Assembly (NCBI RefSeq): GCF_036898465.1 | Contig: NZ_JARUMJ010000001.1 | Span: 3,658,001-3,722,000 of the forward strand | Origin: Streptomyces sp. B21-105 | GTDB taxonomy: Bacteria > Actinomycetota > Actinomycetes > Streptomycetales > Streptomycetaceae | DNA: 64,000 nucleotides | Direction of reading: 5' to 3' | Part shown: positions 1 through 13,063 of the stretch, in pieces | Numbering within the stretch: position 1 is the stretch's first letter | Layout of the letters: the number at the start of each line of letters is the position of its first letter | Program-made: the position numbers and the translations under genes | The notes under the pieces: generated by a model | What the model was told of the DNA's origin: nothing | The model's input: only the letters and a program-made list of their open reading frames with translations | Databases searched by the model: none

Positions 1-1654
1 GGGCACAGAGGAGTTCTCCGTCGGCATGTGGGTGGGCCGTTCGGCCACCCCCAACACGCTGGCCAAGGCAGACGAGAAGCTTGTAGAGCTGCGGCGGAAC
101 CTCGGCAGGAGCCTCGCCAAGGAGAACCCCGTCCAGTTGCACGCATGTCCCTGGTGCGGCGAGCGACTCGACGCGCGCCACTACGAGGCCGACGTCGAAG
201 CCCGACGGATGTTCGTCCGCTGCCCCGCCGAAGACTGCGACTTCGCCGACGGACTGCCCGTCCACCTGGTCGACGAAGCGGTGTACGCGGCACGGCCGAC
301 GCTGGTGATCGCCACCGTCGACAAGTTCGCGTCGATGCCGTGGCGTCCCGCCACCGCGGCGCTGTTCAACCGGAACGACACCGACGACCCCACTCCGCCG
401 CCCGAGTTGATCGTCCAGGACGAACTCCACCTGATCTCAGGCCCGCTGGGAACCCTGACCGGCCTCTACGAGACGGCGGTGGACGCCCTCGCGAACAAGC
501 CCAAGGTCATCGCCTCCACCGCGACCATCCGTCGCGCCGCCGATCAGGGCAAGCACCTCTTCGCCCGCGGCGTACGCCAGTTTCCGCCCGCCGGCCTGGA
601 CGCGCGCGACTCGTGGTTCGCGGTGGAGACCCCTCGCGAGGAGAAGGCGAGTCGCCGCTACATCGGCCTCCTGGCCCCCGGCACCAGCCAGTCCACGCTG
701 CTGATCCGCACGTACGCCACGCTGCTGCACCGGGCGATGCACGCGGACACCGAGGACGACAGGGTGAAGGACACGTACTGGAGCCTTGTCGGCTACTTCA
801 ACAGCCTGCGGCTGCTCTCGGCCGCCGAACTTCAGGTCCACGACGACGTGGTGGCGTATCTGGAACTGCTCGCCGAGCGCGAGGGGAAAGAGGTCCGACC
901 GATCCCCAACTACTCGGAGCTGACGAGTCGTGTCGACGCCAGCGAGATCCCGACCCGTCTCAAGCGCATCGAGAAGTGTTACCCCGACGAGGACGCCGTT
1001 GATGTCCTCCTCGCGACTAACATGATCGCGGTCGGCGTGGACGTCGACCGCCTCGGTCTCATGGCCGTGATGGGCCAGCCGCAGACCACGGCGGAGTACA
1101 TCCAGGCCACCAGCCGCGTCGGTCGCGCGCACCCGGGGTTGGTAGCGGTCATGCTCAACTCCTCCCGCTCACGCGACCGTTCACACTACGAGAGCTTCCA
1201 GCACTTCCATTCGGCTCTCTACCGGGAGGTCGAGTCGACCTCGGTCACCCCGTTCTCCGCGCGCGCCCGCGACCGGGGTCTGCACGCGGTGATCGTGGCC
1301 CTGGCCCGCATCCTGATCCCGGCTGCCCGCCCCAACGACGGTGCCGCCAAGGTCGAGTCGTACGTGGAAGTACTCGAGAGCACGGTGAAGGACGTCATCC
1401 TCGACCGTGTCGGAGCAGTCGACAGCAAGGAGAGCACTGCCGTGTCCCGGGCGTTCGACGAGTTCCTGAACTGGTGGCGTGACGAGGCCGACAACCACAG
1501 CGGCCTGCTCTTCGAACCTCAGCGAGGCAACCGCTCCCCCTCGATCCTGAAGTCGTACGACGACGAGACGGACGGCCCCGAGGCATGGCCCACGCTGTGG
1601 AGCCTGCGCGACGTCGACGCCGAGTCCGCACTGTTCCTGGAGGGAAGCCGATGA
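1..1654 (+). CDS. drmA: DrmA-type DISARM helicase, C-terminal part (5' end outside window)
   Basis: This is the helicase-like protein of the DISARM phage-defence system, which acts with DrmB on incoming DNA. The frame is open from base 2, ahead of the first ATG at 26, so the gene enters from the left and roughly its N-terminal half is missing. Counting from ATG 26, a zinc ribbon is seen (C41, C44, C66, C71). A DExH-type Walker B segment (QDELHLISGPLG, about 131-142), an STAT motif (about 164-167) and a helicase C domain ending in QATSRVGR follow. The stop overlaps the drmB start as ATGA, implying coupled translation. The DrmA assignment rests on the QDELHLISGPLG block plus the DUF1998 partner. 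A different DUF1998-linked helicase is the main alternative. Confidence 0.82.
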   Translation, partial: GTEEFSVGMWVGRSATPNTLAKADEKLVELRRNLGRSLAKENPVQLHACPWCGERLDARHYEADVEARRMFVRCPAEDCDFADGLPVHLVDEAVYAARPTLVIATVDKFASMPWRPATAALFNRNDTDDPTPPPELIVQDELHLISGPLGTLTGLYETAVDALANKPKVIASTATIRRAADQGKHLFARGVRQFPPAGLDARDSWFAVETPREEKASRRYIGLLAPGTSQSTLLIRTYATLLHRAMHADTEDDRVKDTYWSLVGYFNSLRLLSAAELQVHDDVVAYLELLAEREGKEVRPIPNYSELTSRVDASEIPTRLKRIEKCYPDEDAVDVLLATNMIAVGVDVDRLGLMAVMGQPQTTAEYIQATSRVGRAHPGLVAVMLNSSRSRDRSHYESFQHFHSALYREVESTSVTPFSARARDRGLHAVIVALARILIPAARPNDGAAKVESYVEVLESTVKDVILDRVGAVDSKESTAVSRAFDEFLNWWRDEADNHSGLLFEPQRGNRSPSILKSYDDETDGPEAWPTLWSLRDVDAESALFLEGSR

Positions 1655-3507
1655 CCCCGCCCCCCGCCCGCCGCCGACGCACAGGCCAAAGCGGCACGCC
1701 GGCCCACAACCTGCCCCGGAGGGGCTCGGTCCGCCGCGCTCAGGCCATCACCACCTACGGCGTCGGCTCGCTCATCGCGGTCGACCAGGAATCCTTCGTC
1801 GTCTCGGGTCTGGACGACGCGGAGAAGAGCTGGCCGACGGACGAAGCTCCTCGGATCTACGAACGGCGGCTGGCTCGGCTCCTCGACGTAGGTTACTTCC
1901 GGCTGCCCCCCGCGTCCGGCGACGACAGCAAGGACGGCATGCGGGTCCGGCGCTTCCCTCAGATGCACTCCTGCCCGGAGTGCGCCGAACTCCAGCGACA
2001 TCGCGACTTCAACCCGCCGGAAGGGCGCAATGTCTGCGGCACCTGCGAGGTCGCCCTGGTCCCCTCCCGCTTCGTCGTCGCGTGCGAAGCCGGGCACCTC
2101 GACGAGTTCCCGTACTGGCACTGGATCCACCGGTCCACCGAACCGGGGGCCGTCGCCGAGCAGTGCGGTGGGAAGCTCAAGCTGCGCTCGTCCGGCCGTA
2201 CGTCCTCGCTCCGCTCGATCGTCGTCTCCTGCGACTGCACCCCGAAGCCCGAGGCCTCGATGGAGGGATCCTTCCGCAAGGCGGCACTCAAGGACCTCGG
2301 ACTCAGGTGCCAGGGCGCTCGTCCCTGGCTCGGGAATTCAGCGAAGGAGACATGCGGGCTGCCCCTGCGTACCCTCCAGCGCGGTTCCTCCACCGTATGG
2401 CAGCCGGTGTTGAAGTCGGCCCTGTCCATCCCTCCGTGGAGCGACGGCCGTTCGGACCCGCTCGCCGAACACTGGGACGCGCTGCGCGAGTGCGCCGACC
2501 GCAGTGAGGTGGCGGGGTATCTGAAGGCCGCCCTCAAGGGCAAGGCGCCCATCCCGTTGGAAGTGGTGATGACGCTCCTGGACGCGGAGCGCGAAGAGGA
2601 CCCCGACGGCGACACGGCTCCCACCTTCGACCACCGCTATCGCGCTCTGCGCAACAAGGAGTACGAGCGTCTCCGCGCCGGGAACGAGGAGAGCGAGCAC
2701 ACCCGCGGCGAGCAGTTCCTCTGCGAGCCCCCGGAGGGAGACACTGCCGTGCTGAAGCCTCTCGGCGTCGGCGACCCGATGTTGGTCAAGCGGCTTCGCG
2801 AGGTACGCGCTCTGAAGGCCTTCACCCGGCTCGCCGATCCCGACTCGTCCACCGAGGCGAGGGAGGTGCCGCTCGCCGACGGTCCTCTGCCGTGGCTCCC
2901 GGCGATGGTTGTCCATGGCGAGGGGGTGTTCCTCCGCCTGGACGAACAGCGGCTCGGCTCCTGGGAGCGGGCGGTCGGCGTGGCGACCCGCGCGGAACGT
3001 CTGCGCAATGCCCATCAGCGCATGTTGGAAGAGAGGGCGGGCGACCGTCACCAGGCCGTCCAGTCACCCGCTTCCCCCCGCATGGTGCTGCTCCACACAC
3101 TTGCCCATGTGCTCATCAACGAGTGGAGCCTGGAGGCGGGTTACCCGGCGGCGGCACTCCGCGAGCGTTTGTACGCGGACGACGACATGGCCGGAATCCT
3201 GATCTACACGGCGACGAGCGACTCGGCGGGCAGCCTCGGCGGCCTGGTCGCACAAGGCGAACCGCATCTGCTGGATCAGACGGTCCGCTCCGCCGTCCGC
3301 CGTGCCGAGTGGTGCTCCTCCGATCCGCTCTGCATGGAGAGCGGTGTGTCCGGCATCGGTGGCACGAACATGGCTGCCTGCCACGCCTGCGTGATGCTCC
3401 CGGAGACGAGTTGCGAGCACAACAACGTCCTGCTGGACCGGGCGCTGCTCGTCGGCACTCCAGAGGATCCGGACGTGGGGTTCTTCGCGAACCTCCTGGA
3501 GCGTTGA
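1651..3507 (+). CDS. drmB: DrmB, DUF1998-domain DISARM protein
   Basis: DrmB is the DUF1998 partner of DrmA and in DISARM forms the core complex with it. The start at ATG 1651 is chosen because it overlaps the drmA stop and follows GGAGGGAAG; it gives 618 aa. The N-terminus carries the RRAQAITTYGVGSLIAVD block typical of DrmB. Cys pairs follow (CPEC, then CGTC). The C-terminal DUF1998 domain shows LLHTLAHVLINEWSLEAGYP, a CSSDPLC segment and CHACVMLPETSCEHNN, probable zinc ligands. No drmC (phospholipase D-like) or methyltransferase gene follows. The next gene is on the opposite strand, so any remaining DISARM genes must lie to the left of the window. Confidence 0.85.
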   Translation: MTPPPARRRRTGQSGTPAHNLPRRGSVRRAQAITTYGVGSLIAVDQESFVVSGLDDAEKSWPTDEAPRIYERRLARLLDVGYFRLPPASGDDSKDGMRVRRFPQMHSCPECAELQRHRDFNPPEGRNVCGTCEVALVPSRFVVACEAGHLDEFPYWHWIHRSTEPGAVAEQCGGKLKLRSSGRTSSLRSIVVSCDCTPKPEASMEGSFRKAALKDLGLRCQGARPWLGNSAKETCGLPLRTLQRGSSTVWQPVLKSALSIPPWSDGRSDPLAEHWDALRECADRSEVAGYLKAALKGKAPIPLEVVMTLLDAEREEDPDGDTAPTFDHRYRALRNKEYERLRAGNEESEHTRGEQFLCEPPEGDTAVLKPLGVGDPMLVKRLREVRALKAFTRLADPDSSTEAREVPLADGPLPWLPAMVVHGEGVFLRLDEQRLGSWERAVGVATRAERLRNAHQRMLEERAGDRHQAVQSPASPRMVLLHTLAHVLINEWSLEAGYPAAALRERLYADDDMAGILIYTATSDSAGSLGGLVAQGEPHLLDQTVRSAVRRAEWCSSDPLCMESGVSGIGGTNMAACHACVMLPETSCEHNNVLLDRALLVGTPEDPDVGFFANLLER

Positions 3508-9720: not shown

Positions 9721-9895
9721 TCGCAATGACTTCAGGCGTCTCCAGCAGATGGGTGCGCACCCGAGAGTGACGCGCAGTCGCGACGCCGCTCGCACGCCGG
9801 TGCCGCGAAATTGGGGATCGGGCCAGGTACCGCAGTTGCTACCTTCGACGCGATCGGCCACTTGCCGGGGAAACCGGAGAAAGAGGAAGCCCCTC

Positions 9896-11188
9896 ATGCA
9901 TGATGCCCGCGCCCTTCTCGAAATGGGTGCCGAAGCGGTTCGTCGCCTCGCTCGCCGCGGATACTCGCTGGACCTGTTCGCGCTGGAGAGTCTCCAGTCC
10001 CGGCGAAACCAGAACATCCGCTCGGCCGACGAGCTGCGGGCAGAGTCCAAGCGGGTGGCCAGCGAGGTCCAGCAGACCGCGAGGCAGGGCGGGGACATCT
10101 CCAAGCTGAAGGAGCACGCCCGCGAGGTCAAGGAACAGGTCCGCGAGATCGAGGCCGAGCAGGAGCGGGTGCAGGAGAAACTCCGCACGCTCCTCCTCAC
10201 CATCCCGAACCTCCCGGACGACAGGACACCCGATGGCGACTCCGAGGAGTTCGCGGTCGAGGTCCGCCGGGTCGGTACCCCGCCGTCGTTCTCGTTCACC
10301 CCAAAGGACCATGTCGATCTCGGCGAGGCCACCGGCATCCTCGACTTCGCTCGGGCCACGAAGCTGTCGGGCCCTCGCTTCGCCGTGTCGCGAGGAGCCG
10401 GGGCAGCCCTTGAACGGGCGCTCGCCACGCTCTTCCTCGACCTCCACACCCGCCGGCACGACTACGTCGAGCATTCGGTGCCGTTCCTGGTCACGCGCAA
10501 GACAATGACGGGCACGGGCCAGCTGCCCAAGTTCGAGGAGGACCTGTTCAAGACCGGCGTCGCAGACCGTGAACTGTTCCTGGTCCCGACGGCCGAGGTC
10601 CCGCTCACCAATCTCTACGCCGACGAGATCATTCCGCCCTCCGACCTCCCGGTCGCGATCACCGCGCAGACTCCGTGCTTCCGCTCGGAGGCCGGCTCGT
10701 ACGGCCGCGACACCCGGGGCCTGATCCGTCAGCATCAGTTCACCAAGGTGGAGATGGTGCGGATCTGCGATCCCGAGGAGGCCGACGCCGAGCTGGAGAA
10801 ATTGCTCGGCCACGCCGAAGCCTGCCTGAAGGAGCTGGGCCTCGCCTACCGCGTCGTCACCCTCGCCGCAGGTGACACGGGCTTCTCCGCCCAGCTCACC
10901 TACGACTTGGAGGTCTGGTTCCCCAGCCAGAGCACCTACCGCGAGATTTCGTCGGTCTCGAACTTCGGCACCTTCCAAGGACGGCGCGCGAATATCCGCA
11001 CCCGCGGTGCGGACGGAAAACCCAAGCCGGTCGCCACGCTCAACGGCTCGGGCCTCCCGGTCGGCCGCACCCTGGCCGCGCTCCTCGAACAGGGCCAGCA
11101 AGAGGACGGCTCGATCGTCCTGCCCGAATCACTCGTCCCGTACCTCGGCTTCCGCCGTATCTCGGCGGACGGAACACCGGAGGCATAG
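9896..11188 (+). CDS. serS: Seryl-tRNA synthetase, probable second copy
   Basis: A 430-aa class II synthetase that charges tRNA-Ser. ATG 9896 is chosen for AGAGGAAG at 9882-9889; an upstream in-frame ATG lies in non-coding DNA. The N-terminal coiled-coil arm spans about residues 45-100. Motif 2 is seen as TPCFRSEAGSYGRDTRGLIR (about 259 on) and motif 3 as LNGSGLPVGRTLAALLEQ (about 382 on), so the active site looks intact. The usual ISSCSN...DFQARR segment reads ISSVSNFGTFQGRR, a small divergence near the serine pocket. It lies in an accessory region beside a non-bacterial-type AspRS, so a paralogue of the housekeeping serS is likely; the rest of the genome would show this. Confidence 0.93.
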   Translation: MHDARALLEMGAEAVRRLARRGYSLDLFALESLQSRRNQNIRSADELRAESKRVASEVQQTARQGGDISKLKEHAREVKEQVREIEAEQERVQEKLRTLLLTIPNLPDDRTPDGDSEEFAVEVRRVGTPPSFSFTPKDHVDLGEATGILDFARATKLSGPRFAVSRGAGAALERALATLFLDLHTRRHDYVEHSVPFLVTRKTMTGTGQLPKFEEDLFKTGVADRELFLVPTAEVPLTNLYADEIIPPSDLPVAITAQTPCFRSEAGSYGRDTRGLIRQHQFTKVEMVRICDPEEADAELEKLLGHAEACLKELGLAYRVVTLAAGDTGFSAQLTYDLEVWFPSQSTYREISSVSNFGTFQGRRANIRTRGADGKPKPVATLNGSGLPVGRTLAALLEQGQQEDGSIVLPESLVPYLGFRRISADGTPEA

Positions 11189-11363
11189 TGTTCGTCGGCG
11201 TCTGCGACTTTCCCGGTGGCTACGCTTTCCGCCTGCCGGATACGGCTGGATCGAACGATGGCGGTGGGCGGTCGCAGGAGACGCCCGAGCCGCAGGCGCC
11301 GACGTACACCTCCTGGGTCCGGGCCGACTCTCGGATCTGGAACCCGAATGGTTCCGCAAGCCG
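11188..11363 (+). pseudogene. Frameshifted N-terminal remnant of a GT-B glycosyltransferase
   Basis: GTG 11188 overlaps the last base of the serS stop. One frame begins FVGVCDFPGGYAF. The reading then continues sensibly only in another frame: PPAGYGWIERWRWAVAG, then ARAAGADVHLLGPGRLSDLE and PEWFRKP. That is the N-terminal pattern of family-4 (GT-B) glycosyltransferases (a PPPGYGGIER-like loop, then HxVHLLGPG-like strand). The protein ends there; the rest is gone and T-box DNA follows. The translational overlap suggests a former serS-glycosyltransferase operon that decayed. Confidence 0.5.
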
Positions 11364-11486
11364 ATCCGCTCTCGGCATCGGCGACCACTTCCCGTCGCAT
11401 GGCCGCGCTCACGGCAGGTTGGCCCATTGCGAGCGGGTTTTTGATTGGCACCGCCGCCGCACGCTCCGTATCCTGCTGGGCAACGC

Positions 11487-11752
11487 GTCGATGGAGACGA
11501 GTAGCCAGGGATCACGCGAGCGGAGAGAGTCGCCGGAAGCTGGGAAGGTGGTCTCGCGTCCCGAGGTGAAGACCCTCCTGAGCGCGGGGAGGAACGACCC
11601 CGCCTGGGGGTCCAATGCCCCGCCGGCCGGCCCCCGTCACCGGGCCTGAATGAGGCCGCCGCTCTGTGGCGGCGAAAGTGCGGTGGCACCGCGAGTTGCC
11701 CTTCTCGCCCGCACTCCCAAGGGATCATGACGAAGTCCCTCGGAGGACCCGA
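11487..11752 (+). promoter_or_regulatory. T-box riboswitch (Asp specifier) upstream of aspS
   Basis: This leader has the parts of a T-box that senses uncharged tRNA. The Stem I basal strand has GATGGAGACGAGTAG (11489-11503). The AG-bulge region is GGAGAGAGTCG (11522-11532), and the distal loop lies near GGAAGCTGGGAAGG. The 3' side GAAGACCCTCC places the specifier at GAC 11571-11573, an Asp codon. Stem III is a 6-bp hairpin (11655-11673). The antiterminator-type helix pairs AGTGCGG (11677-11683) with CCGCACT (11709-11715) and GCGAG (11691-11695) with CTCGC (11704-11708), around the bulge TGGCACC (11684-11690). TGGC would pair with a GCCA acceptor end, as in tRNA-Asp (G73). No T-run follows and the ribosome site GGAGGA (11742-11747) is 27 nt downstream, so translational control is inferred. 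Confidence 0.85.
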
Positions 11753-13063
11753 ATGATCCACAGCCGCGTACACGTCTCCGACCTGCGAGAACACGTCGGC
11801 CGTACCGTTTCCGTCTGCGGGTGGGTGAACACCCTCCGCCTGCAGCGCAAGATGCAGTTCGTCATCGTGCGCGACCACACCGGCATGGTGCAGGTGACCC
11901 ACAAGCGTGACGACGGGCCACTGGAGGCCCGGCTCGAAGGCCTCACATCCGAGTCCGCCGTCAGGATCACCGGCCGCGTAGTCGACGCGGCCCAGGTCAA
12001 GCTCGGCGGCCTGGAGATCGTCCCCGAAGCGGTCGAGGTCCTGAACCCGGCCGCCACGCCTCTGCCGATCGACGAGCACACCGGCCTGGAGCAGCGCATG
12101 GACTGGCGCTTCCTTGACGTGCGCCGCCGTCCCGCCCCCCAGCTGATGTTCGCCGTGCAGACCACCCTGGAACAGGGCACGCGCGAGTACGCATACGCGC
12201 AGGGTGCCACCGAGATGCACACCCCCAAGCTCATGGGCACCGCCTCCGAGTCCGGCGCGGAGGTCTTCAAGCTCGGCTACTTCGGCCGCAACGCCTATCT
12301 GGCTCAGTCGCCGCAGTTCTTCAAGCAGATGGCGATCGCGGCCGGCATCGGCAAGGTCTTCGAGATCGGGCCGGTCTTCCGCGCCGAGCCGTCGTTCACC
12401 TCCCGGCACGCCACCGAGTTCACAGGCGTCGACGTGGAGTTGGCCTGGATCGACGGCGTCGAGGACGTGATGGCGTTCGAGGAGCAGATGCTCGCCCACG
12501 CGATCGCCAAGGTCGCCGACGCGCACGGCGAGGCGATCGCCGAGCACTTCGGCGTCGAGGTCACCGTGCCCACGACGCCCTTTCCCCGGATCACGATGTC
12601 CGAGGCGCACGAGATCCTGCGCCAGGGCGGCTGGGACCCGGCAGGGGTCAAGGAGGACCTGGACCCGGAGGGCGAGCGGGGCATCTCGGCTCACATCAGG
12701 AAGACCACCGGACACGAGTTCGTGTTCATCACGCACTACCCGGTCGGCATCCGGCCCTTCTACCACATGCGGCCTGCCGACGACCCGAGCGTGACCTTGA
12801 GCTTCGACCTGCTGTGGCAGGGCCTGGAAGTGACCACGGGCGCTCAGCGTGAGCACCGGCACGACGTGCTGCTGAAGCAGGCCGACGAGAAGGGCATGAG
12901 CACCGAGCCGATGCAGGACTACATGAACGCGTTCCGGTACGGGTGCCCGCCGCACGGAGGCCTCGGCATGGGCCTCGGGCGGGTGCTGATGGTCATGCTC
13001 GGCCTGGACTCCATCCGTGAGGCCACGTTCCTCTTCCGCGGGCCGAACCGGCTCACGCCGTAG
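11753..13063 (+). CDS. aspS: Archaeal/eukaryal-type aspartyl-tRNA synthetase, probable second copy
   Basis: A 436-aa class IIb synthetase. Length and layout are those of the archaeal-type AspRS, not of the ~590-aa bacterial enzyme with its GAD insertion. The anticodon-binding OB domain covers about 1-100 (GWVNTLRLQRKMQFVIVRDH). Motif 2 is FEIGPVFRAEPSFTSRH (203-219), with AYLAQSPQFFKQM before it. The C-terminal HGGLGMGLGRVLMVMLGL segment is motif 3. Residue 26, Trp in archaeal discriminating enzymes as I recall, is Asn here, while the Lys of the KLG motif (83) is kept. Whether it also charges tRNA-Asn is therefore open. It is preceded by GGAGGA and the Asp T-box. Probably a reserve or resistant AspRS (inference). 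Confidence 0.92.
   Translation: MIHSRVHVSDLREHVGRTVSVCGWVNTLRLQRKMQFVIVRDHTGMVQVTHKRDDGPLEARLEGLTSESAVRITGRVVDAAQVKLGGLEIVPEAVEVLNPAATPLPIDEHTGLEQRMDWRFLDVRRRPAPQLMFAVQTTLEQGTREYAYAQGATEMHTPKLMGTASESGAEVFKLGYFGRNAYLAQSPQFFKQMAIAAGIGKVFEIGPVFRAEPSFTSRHATEFTGVDVELAWIDGVEDVMAFEEQMLAHAIAKVADAHGEAIAEHFGVEVTVPTTPFPRITMSEAHEILRQGGWDPAGVKEDLDPEGERGISAHIRKTTGHEFVFITHYPVGIRPFYHMRPADDPSVTLSFDLLWQGLEVTTGAQREHRHDVLLKQADEKGMSTEPMQDYMNAFRYGCPPHGGLGMGLGRVLMVMLGLDSIREATFLFRGPNRLTP

Follow-up and report, generated by a model that had tools for sequence, protein, structure and literature searches.

Does the leader in front of the spare aspartyl-tRNA synthetase (AspRS) gene of Streptomyces sp. B21-105 read tRNA-Asp, and what would an actinomycete gain from such a switch? 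We addressed this question in a 64,000-nt stretch of the genome (NZ_JARUMJ010000001.1, positions 3,658,001-3,722,000, forward strand), here called the window. All coordinates count its first letter as position 1, and the elements of the locus described below lie on its plus strand. We are highly confident in the overall explanation, a tRNA-Asp-reading T-box with a long Stem I that controls the spare AspRS. Sequence comparison supports its three parts: the identity of the leader as a T-box, its specificity for Asp and its spare AspRS target.

The leader belongs to the T-box family

The original prediction proposed a search with the Rfam T-box model, RF00230. This search bore it out: model positions 1-219, the full length, align to 11479-11715 with 61.7 bits (E 6.4e-13 when 721 bases are scanned; E 1.8e-12 over the whole 9.2-Mb genome). 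At E 0.001 the genome has only one other match (L002), which reads GAAGATCACC and whose specifier, judged by eye, is ATC for Ile. No further T-box was found within the window, either in the genome scan with RF00230 or with our own model R1, which covers 11485-11718 and has the window among its training rows. As 61.7 bits lies below the RF00230 gathering score of 93, a default Rfam scan of the window omits the leader and returns a tRNA as its sole entry. The same threshold is passed by no match in any of 394 genomes of the class, 202 of which have a match at E 0.001; the gathering score is thus unsuited to these leaders.

Stems I, II and III are present in the proper order, and the diagnostic parts that had been read from the letters, namely AGTA, the GAC specifier, Stem III and the antisequestrator arms, were found where they had been placed. 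The long Stem I (11493-11578) is closed by a basal helix of GGAG (11493-11496) and CTCC (11575-11578). Sequence and alignment set AGTA (11500-11503) opposite GAA (11568-11570), and the alignment marks two conserved apical words, GAGAGAG (11523-11529) and GCTGGGAAGG (11539-11548). The specifier GAC, an aligned column across distinct leaders, occupies 11571-11573. Stem II (11584-11623) pairs GCGGGG (11584-11589) with CCCCGC (11618-11623) and encloses an inner stem; Stem III (11655-11673) pairs GCCGCCG with TGGCGGC. The antisequestrator (11677-11715) consists of a 7-bp helix (11677-11683/11709-11715), the bulge TGGCACC (11684-11690), a 5-bp helix (11691-11695/11704-11708) and the loop TTGCCCTT; both arms are perfect, exactly as predicted.

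One feature departs from published T-boxes. A purine directly 3' of the specifier has been described as conserved (PMC7583486), and the window has C at this place (11574). Most leaders share this C (84 of 91 with an Asp specifier, 9 of 14 with a Ser specifier), and a purine is found in 12. We treat the purine as a usual T-box trait and not as a defining one.

The leader is preceded by a promoter-like element (11445-11474), TTGGCA at 11445-11450 and TATCCT at 11469-11474 with an 18-bp spacer, that matches 9 of 12 consensus positions (mean 0.0 in 50 shuffles). Its -10 box is conserved: a TANNNT box lies 10-24 nt 5' of the leader in 107 of 110 distinct relatives, at a spacing of 15 or 16 nt in 102, and a control interval contains one in 1/110. 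The -35 hexamer is less well kept, with at least four of six matches to TTGACA in 34/107. Given a -10 box at fixed spacing, the transcript should begin just 5' of Stem I, probably near 11480 in the window, and the start at 11487 given originally is moved upstream accordingly.

Covariation among related leaders

Relatives were collected in several ways. Searched at the DNA level, 246 genomes of the genus yielded matches in 39, with E below 1e-15 in 26; short weak DNA matches were not counted as T-boxes, and two of these (in G049 and G202) were still taken as loci L064 and L062. Alignment A1 holds 34 of the 36 leaders gathered. L062 was dropped for lack of a specifier and a synthetase, and L060 was likewise omitted, from A1 and from model R1, which was built from A1. 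Alignment A2 holds 24 AspRS leaders. A weak third match in one genome (G117, L180) was inspected and excluded from the counts.

Thermodynamic folding was rejected as evidence for the leader: plain folding of 11487-11775 gave a stability no better than that of shuffled sequences (z 0.24; 118 of 200 shuffles at least as stable). The case for structure therefore rests on homology and covariation, not on energy. Covariation in homologous leaders, the absence of which had been named beforehand as a refutation, was found. RNAalifold places 57 pairs on A1, and 23 of them carry a two-sided change that keeps the pair in at least one leader. Two-sided changes affect four of the seven pairs of Stem III in 3 to 12 leaders per pair, and two further pairs in a single leader. 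In the outer helix of the antisequestrator three of seven pairs compensate (AU/GC, CG/UA and CG/UA). Taken together, the antisequestrator and the hairpin downstream of it pair in 99.8% of cells versus 37-54% when slid, and their covariation score and paired cells exceed all 500 shuffles, though the rows are related and both measures are inflated by this. The count of pairs changed on both sides in these two elements, four, was reached by 83/500 shuffles.

Specifier, tRNA end and target gene agree

If the leader reads tRNA-Asp, its specifier should follow the gene behind it. The pooled 129 matches reduce to 111 distinct leaders: 90 with GAC and one with GAT before AspRS, 14 with TCC before a seryl-tRNA synthetase (SerRS), five before AspRS in which no specifier could be aligned, and one with TCC and no synthetase. 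Since leaders were collected by their likeness to that of the window or as neighbours of its AspRS, the Asp to Ser ratio is not a frequency. Codon and enzyme agree in all 105 distinct leaders that have both an aligned specifier and a synthetase, with no discordant case, which upholds the predicted Asp specificity through GAC. The GAT leader, from Streptomyces dysideae, uses the other Asp codon. Alternative frames were discarded: a specifier shifted by one base would encode Arg or Thr on one side and Ile or Pro on the other, none of them the amino acids of these enzymes, and only the frame given here yields Asp before AspRS and Ser before SerRS. The T-box reading and its Asp specificity are strongly supported because sister leaders before spare SerRS genes carry a Ser codon instead.

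The switch between Asp and Ser can be seen within single loci. In four genomes (L033, L034, L035, L036) about 3 kb separates a SerRS leader from an AspRS leader, and both kinds occur in 5 of the 72 actinobacterial loci of our protein search (L236, L238, L240, L254, L262), at least two of these five being probably identical to loci of the four genomes. In such tandem loci TCC stands before SerRS and GAC or GAT before AspRS, and an aminoglycoside-phosphotransferase-like gene lies nearby. A quick tree of the leaders with the specifier masked splits the Ser leaders into two sets nested among the Asp leaders (a minimum of 2 changes); many of its forks are open, and a single origin of the Ser leaders is compatible with it.

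The acceptor end points the same way. A tRNA-Asp gene of the genome (anticodon GTC), read from a check that covered 30 of the 69 loci matched in the tRNA scan, has discriminator G and no encoded CCA, so that UGGC can pair with GCCA, as had been proposed. At the fourth position of UGGN, 60 of 91 Asp leaders have C, 25 have U and six have A; all 14 Ser leaders have C. C or U thus fills this place in 85/91 Asp leaders; the six UGGA leaders, the GAT leader included, allow no pairing with discriminator G.

In our sample Asp is indeed an unusual specificity, as originally stated, actinobacterial T-boxes being mostly of the Ile type. Of the best-scoring RF00230 loci in the class, 29 were examined besides that of the window (L102-L130); 26 of them are Ile (23 called by pattern, three by eye), two Asp and one Ser.

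The target is a spare enzyme with a sporadic distribution

The gene behind the leader (11753-13063, starting at ATG 11753) encodes an archaeal-type AspRS of 436 aa. Its frame, 11666-13063, matches the profiles PRK05159 (467 bits) and aspS_nondisc (374.5 bits), both over their cut-offs. The other AspRS of the genome is a bacterial-type aspS in a 589-aa frame; the downstream gene is a spare AspRS, as predicted. No third relative, such as an asparaginyl-tRNA synthetase, was found in the genome at E 0.001 in the synthetase search. An AspRS stand-in would therefore need to serve tRNA-Asp and, together with an amidotransferase, tRNA-Asn, and the non-discriminating type would fit this dual service. 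Among relatives with the T-box AspRS, 38 of the 39 genomes tested also have a bacterial-type aspS over cut-off.

The Asp leader is an accessory element, sporadic in genus and class. At E 1e-6, R1 matches 21 of 394 genomes of the class (15 of 137 genera) and 23 of 199 genomes of the genus. All 17 of its class matches outside the genus sit directly before an AspRS gene, in a search that is blind to genes. Of the 77 named loci obtained with a protein search, 72 are actinobacterial, and the leader stands directly before AspRS in 70 of these 72; it is missing in Thermomonospora catenispora (L264) and in L276, near the end of its contig.

Several loci depart from this pattern. In G365 (L151, C2 near 289154-289299, from another family) a weak T-box lies directly before the bacterial-type aspS, which is there the T-box gene itself. 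Its very short Stem I carries GAC in the loop when read by eye, as do those of L147, L149 and L150 before archaeal-type AspRS genes; these are four of the five AspRS leaders in which no specifier could be aligned. In the fifth, L237, no specifier was seen and no Stem I is recognisable. The TCC leader of G067 (L060/L145) has neither the UGGN part nor a synthetase, and in G252 (L144) the AspRS gene behind an intact-looking leader appears to be interrupted by about 3 kb.

How the leader may control AspRS

The region between antisequestrator and gene contains a second conserved structure, a hairpin at 11722-11759 formed by GGATCAT (11722-11728) and ATGATCC (11753-11759), with an inner helix of GTCC (11735-11738) and GGAC (11745-11748). 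It holds both the start codon and the Shine-Dalgarno (SD) sequence GGAGG (11742-11746), which lies 6 nt 5' of ATG and is invariant in all 24 aligned leaders. The outer arms are nearly invariant as well, and one inner pair is T-A in 12 and C-G in 12 of the 24. The hairpin and the antisequestrator do not overlap.

We propose the following switch. GAC on the long Stem I would pair with the anticodon GUC of tRNA-Asp. When this tRNA is uncharged, UGGC would pair with its free GCCA end and stabilise the antisequestrator, which would let the ribosome reach the SD and the AUG of the spare AspRS; with charged tRNA-Asp the SD/AUG region would stay folded. As the housekeeping AspRS is a separate gene, the spare enzyme would be turned on mainly when the main one is failing, be it through an AspRS inhibitor or a lack of Asp.

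Control at the ribosome-binding site had been predicted from the lack of a T-run. It is likely: no terminator-like site was found in 11300-11900, and the conserved hairpin contains SD and AUG. Modelling, however, does not give a clean switch in the window, where SD accessibility is 0.58 with the antisequestrator formed and 0.55 with it blocked, and AUG is paired in both models. When the 3' part is modelled, blocking the antisequestrator makes the SD less accessible in 10 of 24 relatives (0.06-0.24, versus 0.44-0.60 when it is formed), and with the antisequestrator formed AUG is mostly paired (0.34 open in two leaders, at most 0.14 in the rest). In the MFE structure of the whole window leader, CTCC (11714-11717), which shares 2 nt with the antisequestrator, pairs with GGAG (11742-11745) of the SD and the outer helix of the antisequestrator does not form, as would be expected of an OFF state. 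This pairing is possible in 17 of 24 relatives (14 with CTCC, three with CTTC) and has one mismatch in seven. The fixed loop word CCCUU of the antisequestrator is complementary to AAGGG (11719-11723), which overlaps the hairpin arm, and their pairing is a candidate link between the two structures.

A conserved leader peptide, seen by eye in the window (from ATG 11727 to a TGA overlapping ATG 11753) and in several relatives, was rejected because its frame relation to AspRS varies, out of frame or in frame, and its ATG is missing in L055. We take the apparent peptide as a by-product of the GGATCAT/ATGATCC pairing.

The failure of a forced antisequestrator to open the window SD in models is also what would be seen if this Asp T-box acted on transcription, through a U-less or Rho-dependent terminator, and not at the ribosome site. 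U-less terminators occur in actinomycetes, and 22 of 24 leaders have the hairpin at 11722-11759 in the MFE structure of their 3' part. We nevertheless consider this mode improbable, since a T-run terminator is lacking from 11300-11900, the conserved hairpin holds SD and AUG with an inner pair kept by compensation, and actinobacterial ileS T-boxes have been described with SD-sequestering hairpins (PMC1262725; PMC7583486). It is very unlikely that the leader is a relic whose fold persists after tRNA sensing was lost, with AspRS constitutive or unexpressed. Broken copies do exist (the G067 leader and L237) and six Asp leaders have UGGA; against this, every element of the leader in the window is intact, the AspRS frame is open over 436 aa, and neither the specifier nor UGGC, the -10 box or the helices have been lost.

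Relation to known T-boxes and second synthetases

Translational T-boxes as a kind are already known, whereas the Asp and Ser members in actinomycetes are apparently unreported in the open literature that we searched. SD-sequestering hairpins in actinobacterial ileS T-boxes were described in 2005 (Seliverstov, PMC1262725), and the passages of that paper on synthetase and biosynthesis operons give T-boxes before ileS only. For Actinobacteria the corresponding passages of PMC2494555 again give ileS, and PMC7583486 and PMC7778990 treat translational T-boxes in general terms in the sections concerned. The T-box database TBDB scanned Actinobacteria with a translational (class II) model (PMC7778990), so some of our leaders may be listed there; the main text of its paper contains none of the words aspart-, serine and Streptomyces. 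Among the open-licence papers searched, none was seen to describe actinobacterial T-boxes for Asp or Ser, which is weak evidence of absence.

Like the window leader, the ileS T-boxes belong to this family and have the bulge GGUGGNACC; they sequester the SD instead of forming a terminator (PMC1262725; PMC7583486), as the window leader probably does, and by its ATC specifier, read by eye, L002 of the window genome is one of them. The window leader differs from them in its specifier (GAC, not ATC), its bulge (UGGC, not UGGU), its target (a spare AspRS, not ileS) and the 5-base loop word CCCUU matched by AAGGG downstream. Its Stem I is long, while most translational T-boxes have shorter ones (PMC7583486). 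In Firmicutes, T-boxes before aspS are mostly of the terminator type; the window leader, by contrast, is GC-rich, belongs to an actinomycete and has no terminator that we could find. One of the three aspS genes of Clostridium acetobutylicum is likewise preceded by a T-box (PMC2494555).

Antibiotic-insensitive second synthetases offer another comparison: SerRS2 for albomycin, IleRS2 for mupirocin and a TrpRS for indolmycin (PMC9437257). These too are sporadic and distantly related to the housekeeping enzyme beside which they occur. Here the putatively insensitive second enzyme is an AspRS under a T-box. Control of such genes by a T-box has a precedent in PMC2494555, where the legend of a tree includes T-boxes that belong to mupirocin-resistant tRNA ligases.

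With these leaders, the range of amino acids apparently sensed by actinobacterial T-boxes grows by Asp and Ser, and a specifier is seen to change together with its target gene inside one leader lineage. Genome searches can also use them as markers of spare AspRS and SerRS genes that are possibly inhibitor-resistant.

Possible biological role

The likely role of the AspRS is that of a replacement switched on when the main synthetase is blocked, and the joint switching of specifier and gene in relatives hints at inducible antibiotic resistance. Such a threat could resemble dealanylascamycin, a Streptomyces nucleoside from which Plasmodium AsnRS, AspRS and SerRS, among others, form tight-binding adducts (PMC12262901); an AspRS and SerRS back-up induced by the matching uncharged tRNAs would suit it.

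The spare AspRS might instead secure supply, answering plain aspartate starvation or supplying a biosynthetic enzyme that uses tRNA with Asp-tRNA. T-boxes respond to every drop in charging, and antibiotic pathways that use aminoacyl-tRNA are known, one with its own SerRS (PMC4052509). The sporadic distribution (23/199 in the genus) and the distantly related second enzyme nonetheless resemble target substitution more than housekeeping, and none of the neighbouring proteins scanned, a minority of the neighbours at most loci, was identified as a tRNA-dependent ligase. We regard this alternative as possible but rather doubtful.

Going back to replacement of a blocked synthetase, part of the relatives carry a neighbourhood that may bear on the source of the block. 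In 34 of the 72 actinobacterial loci, some of which run into a contig end, a radical-SAM cassette lies opposite AspRS, downstream on the other strand (L037, L043, L048, L204, L206 and L259 are among such loci). The cassette comprises a protein of about 118 aa without known family, two radical-SAM proteins and a cupin-like protein. The radical-SAM domains score over the Pfam cut-off and the cupin match below it; none of the four proteins passes the cut-off of a named NCBIfam family, and the first radical-SAM protein is nearest to PapB-type SPASM peptide maturases, below their cut-off. From these matches the cassette looks like a peptide-modifying biosynthetic cluster. It is absent beside the window's AspRS among the window proteins scanned.

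It is tempting to propose, as a tentative idea, that a widespread, inducible form of self-protection against undescribed natural products that block AspRS (and SerRS in the tandem loci) uses the Asp and Ser T-boxes as its sensors, with the cassette making the product and the T-box acting as a signpost in the DNA. In the same proposal, CCCUU would capture AAGGG and so break the AUG hairpin without the usual shared strand. If the cassette does make an AspRS poison, the leader would point the way to a new class of antibiotics whose target is known.

Other genes near these leaders deserve mention. An RlmN/Cfr-like radical-SAM protein, below the cut-offs of its models, is encoded upstream of eight T-box AspRS genes (L231, L233-L235, L239, L241, L268, L275) and is another possible protection gene. 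In the window a second SerRS gene lies upstream of the leader (9749-11188, plus strand; its true start is probably near 9896), before which neither RF00230 nor R1 found a T-box. A SerRS 86% identical to it is encoded about 8 kb downstream of the T-box AspRS of Streptomyces purpureus (L255). Farther upstream, 26-3507 of the window contains DISARM-type genes, namely the C-terminal part of a DrmA-like helicase (below cut-off) and DrmB (over cut-off).
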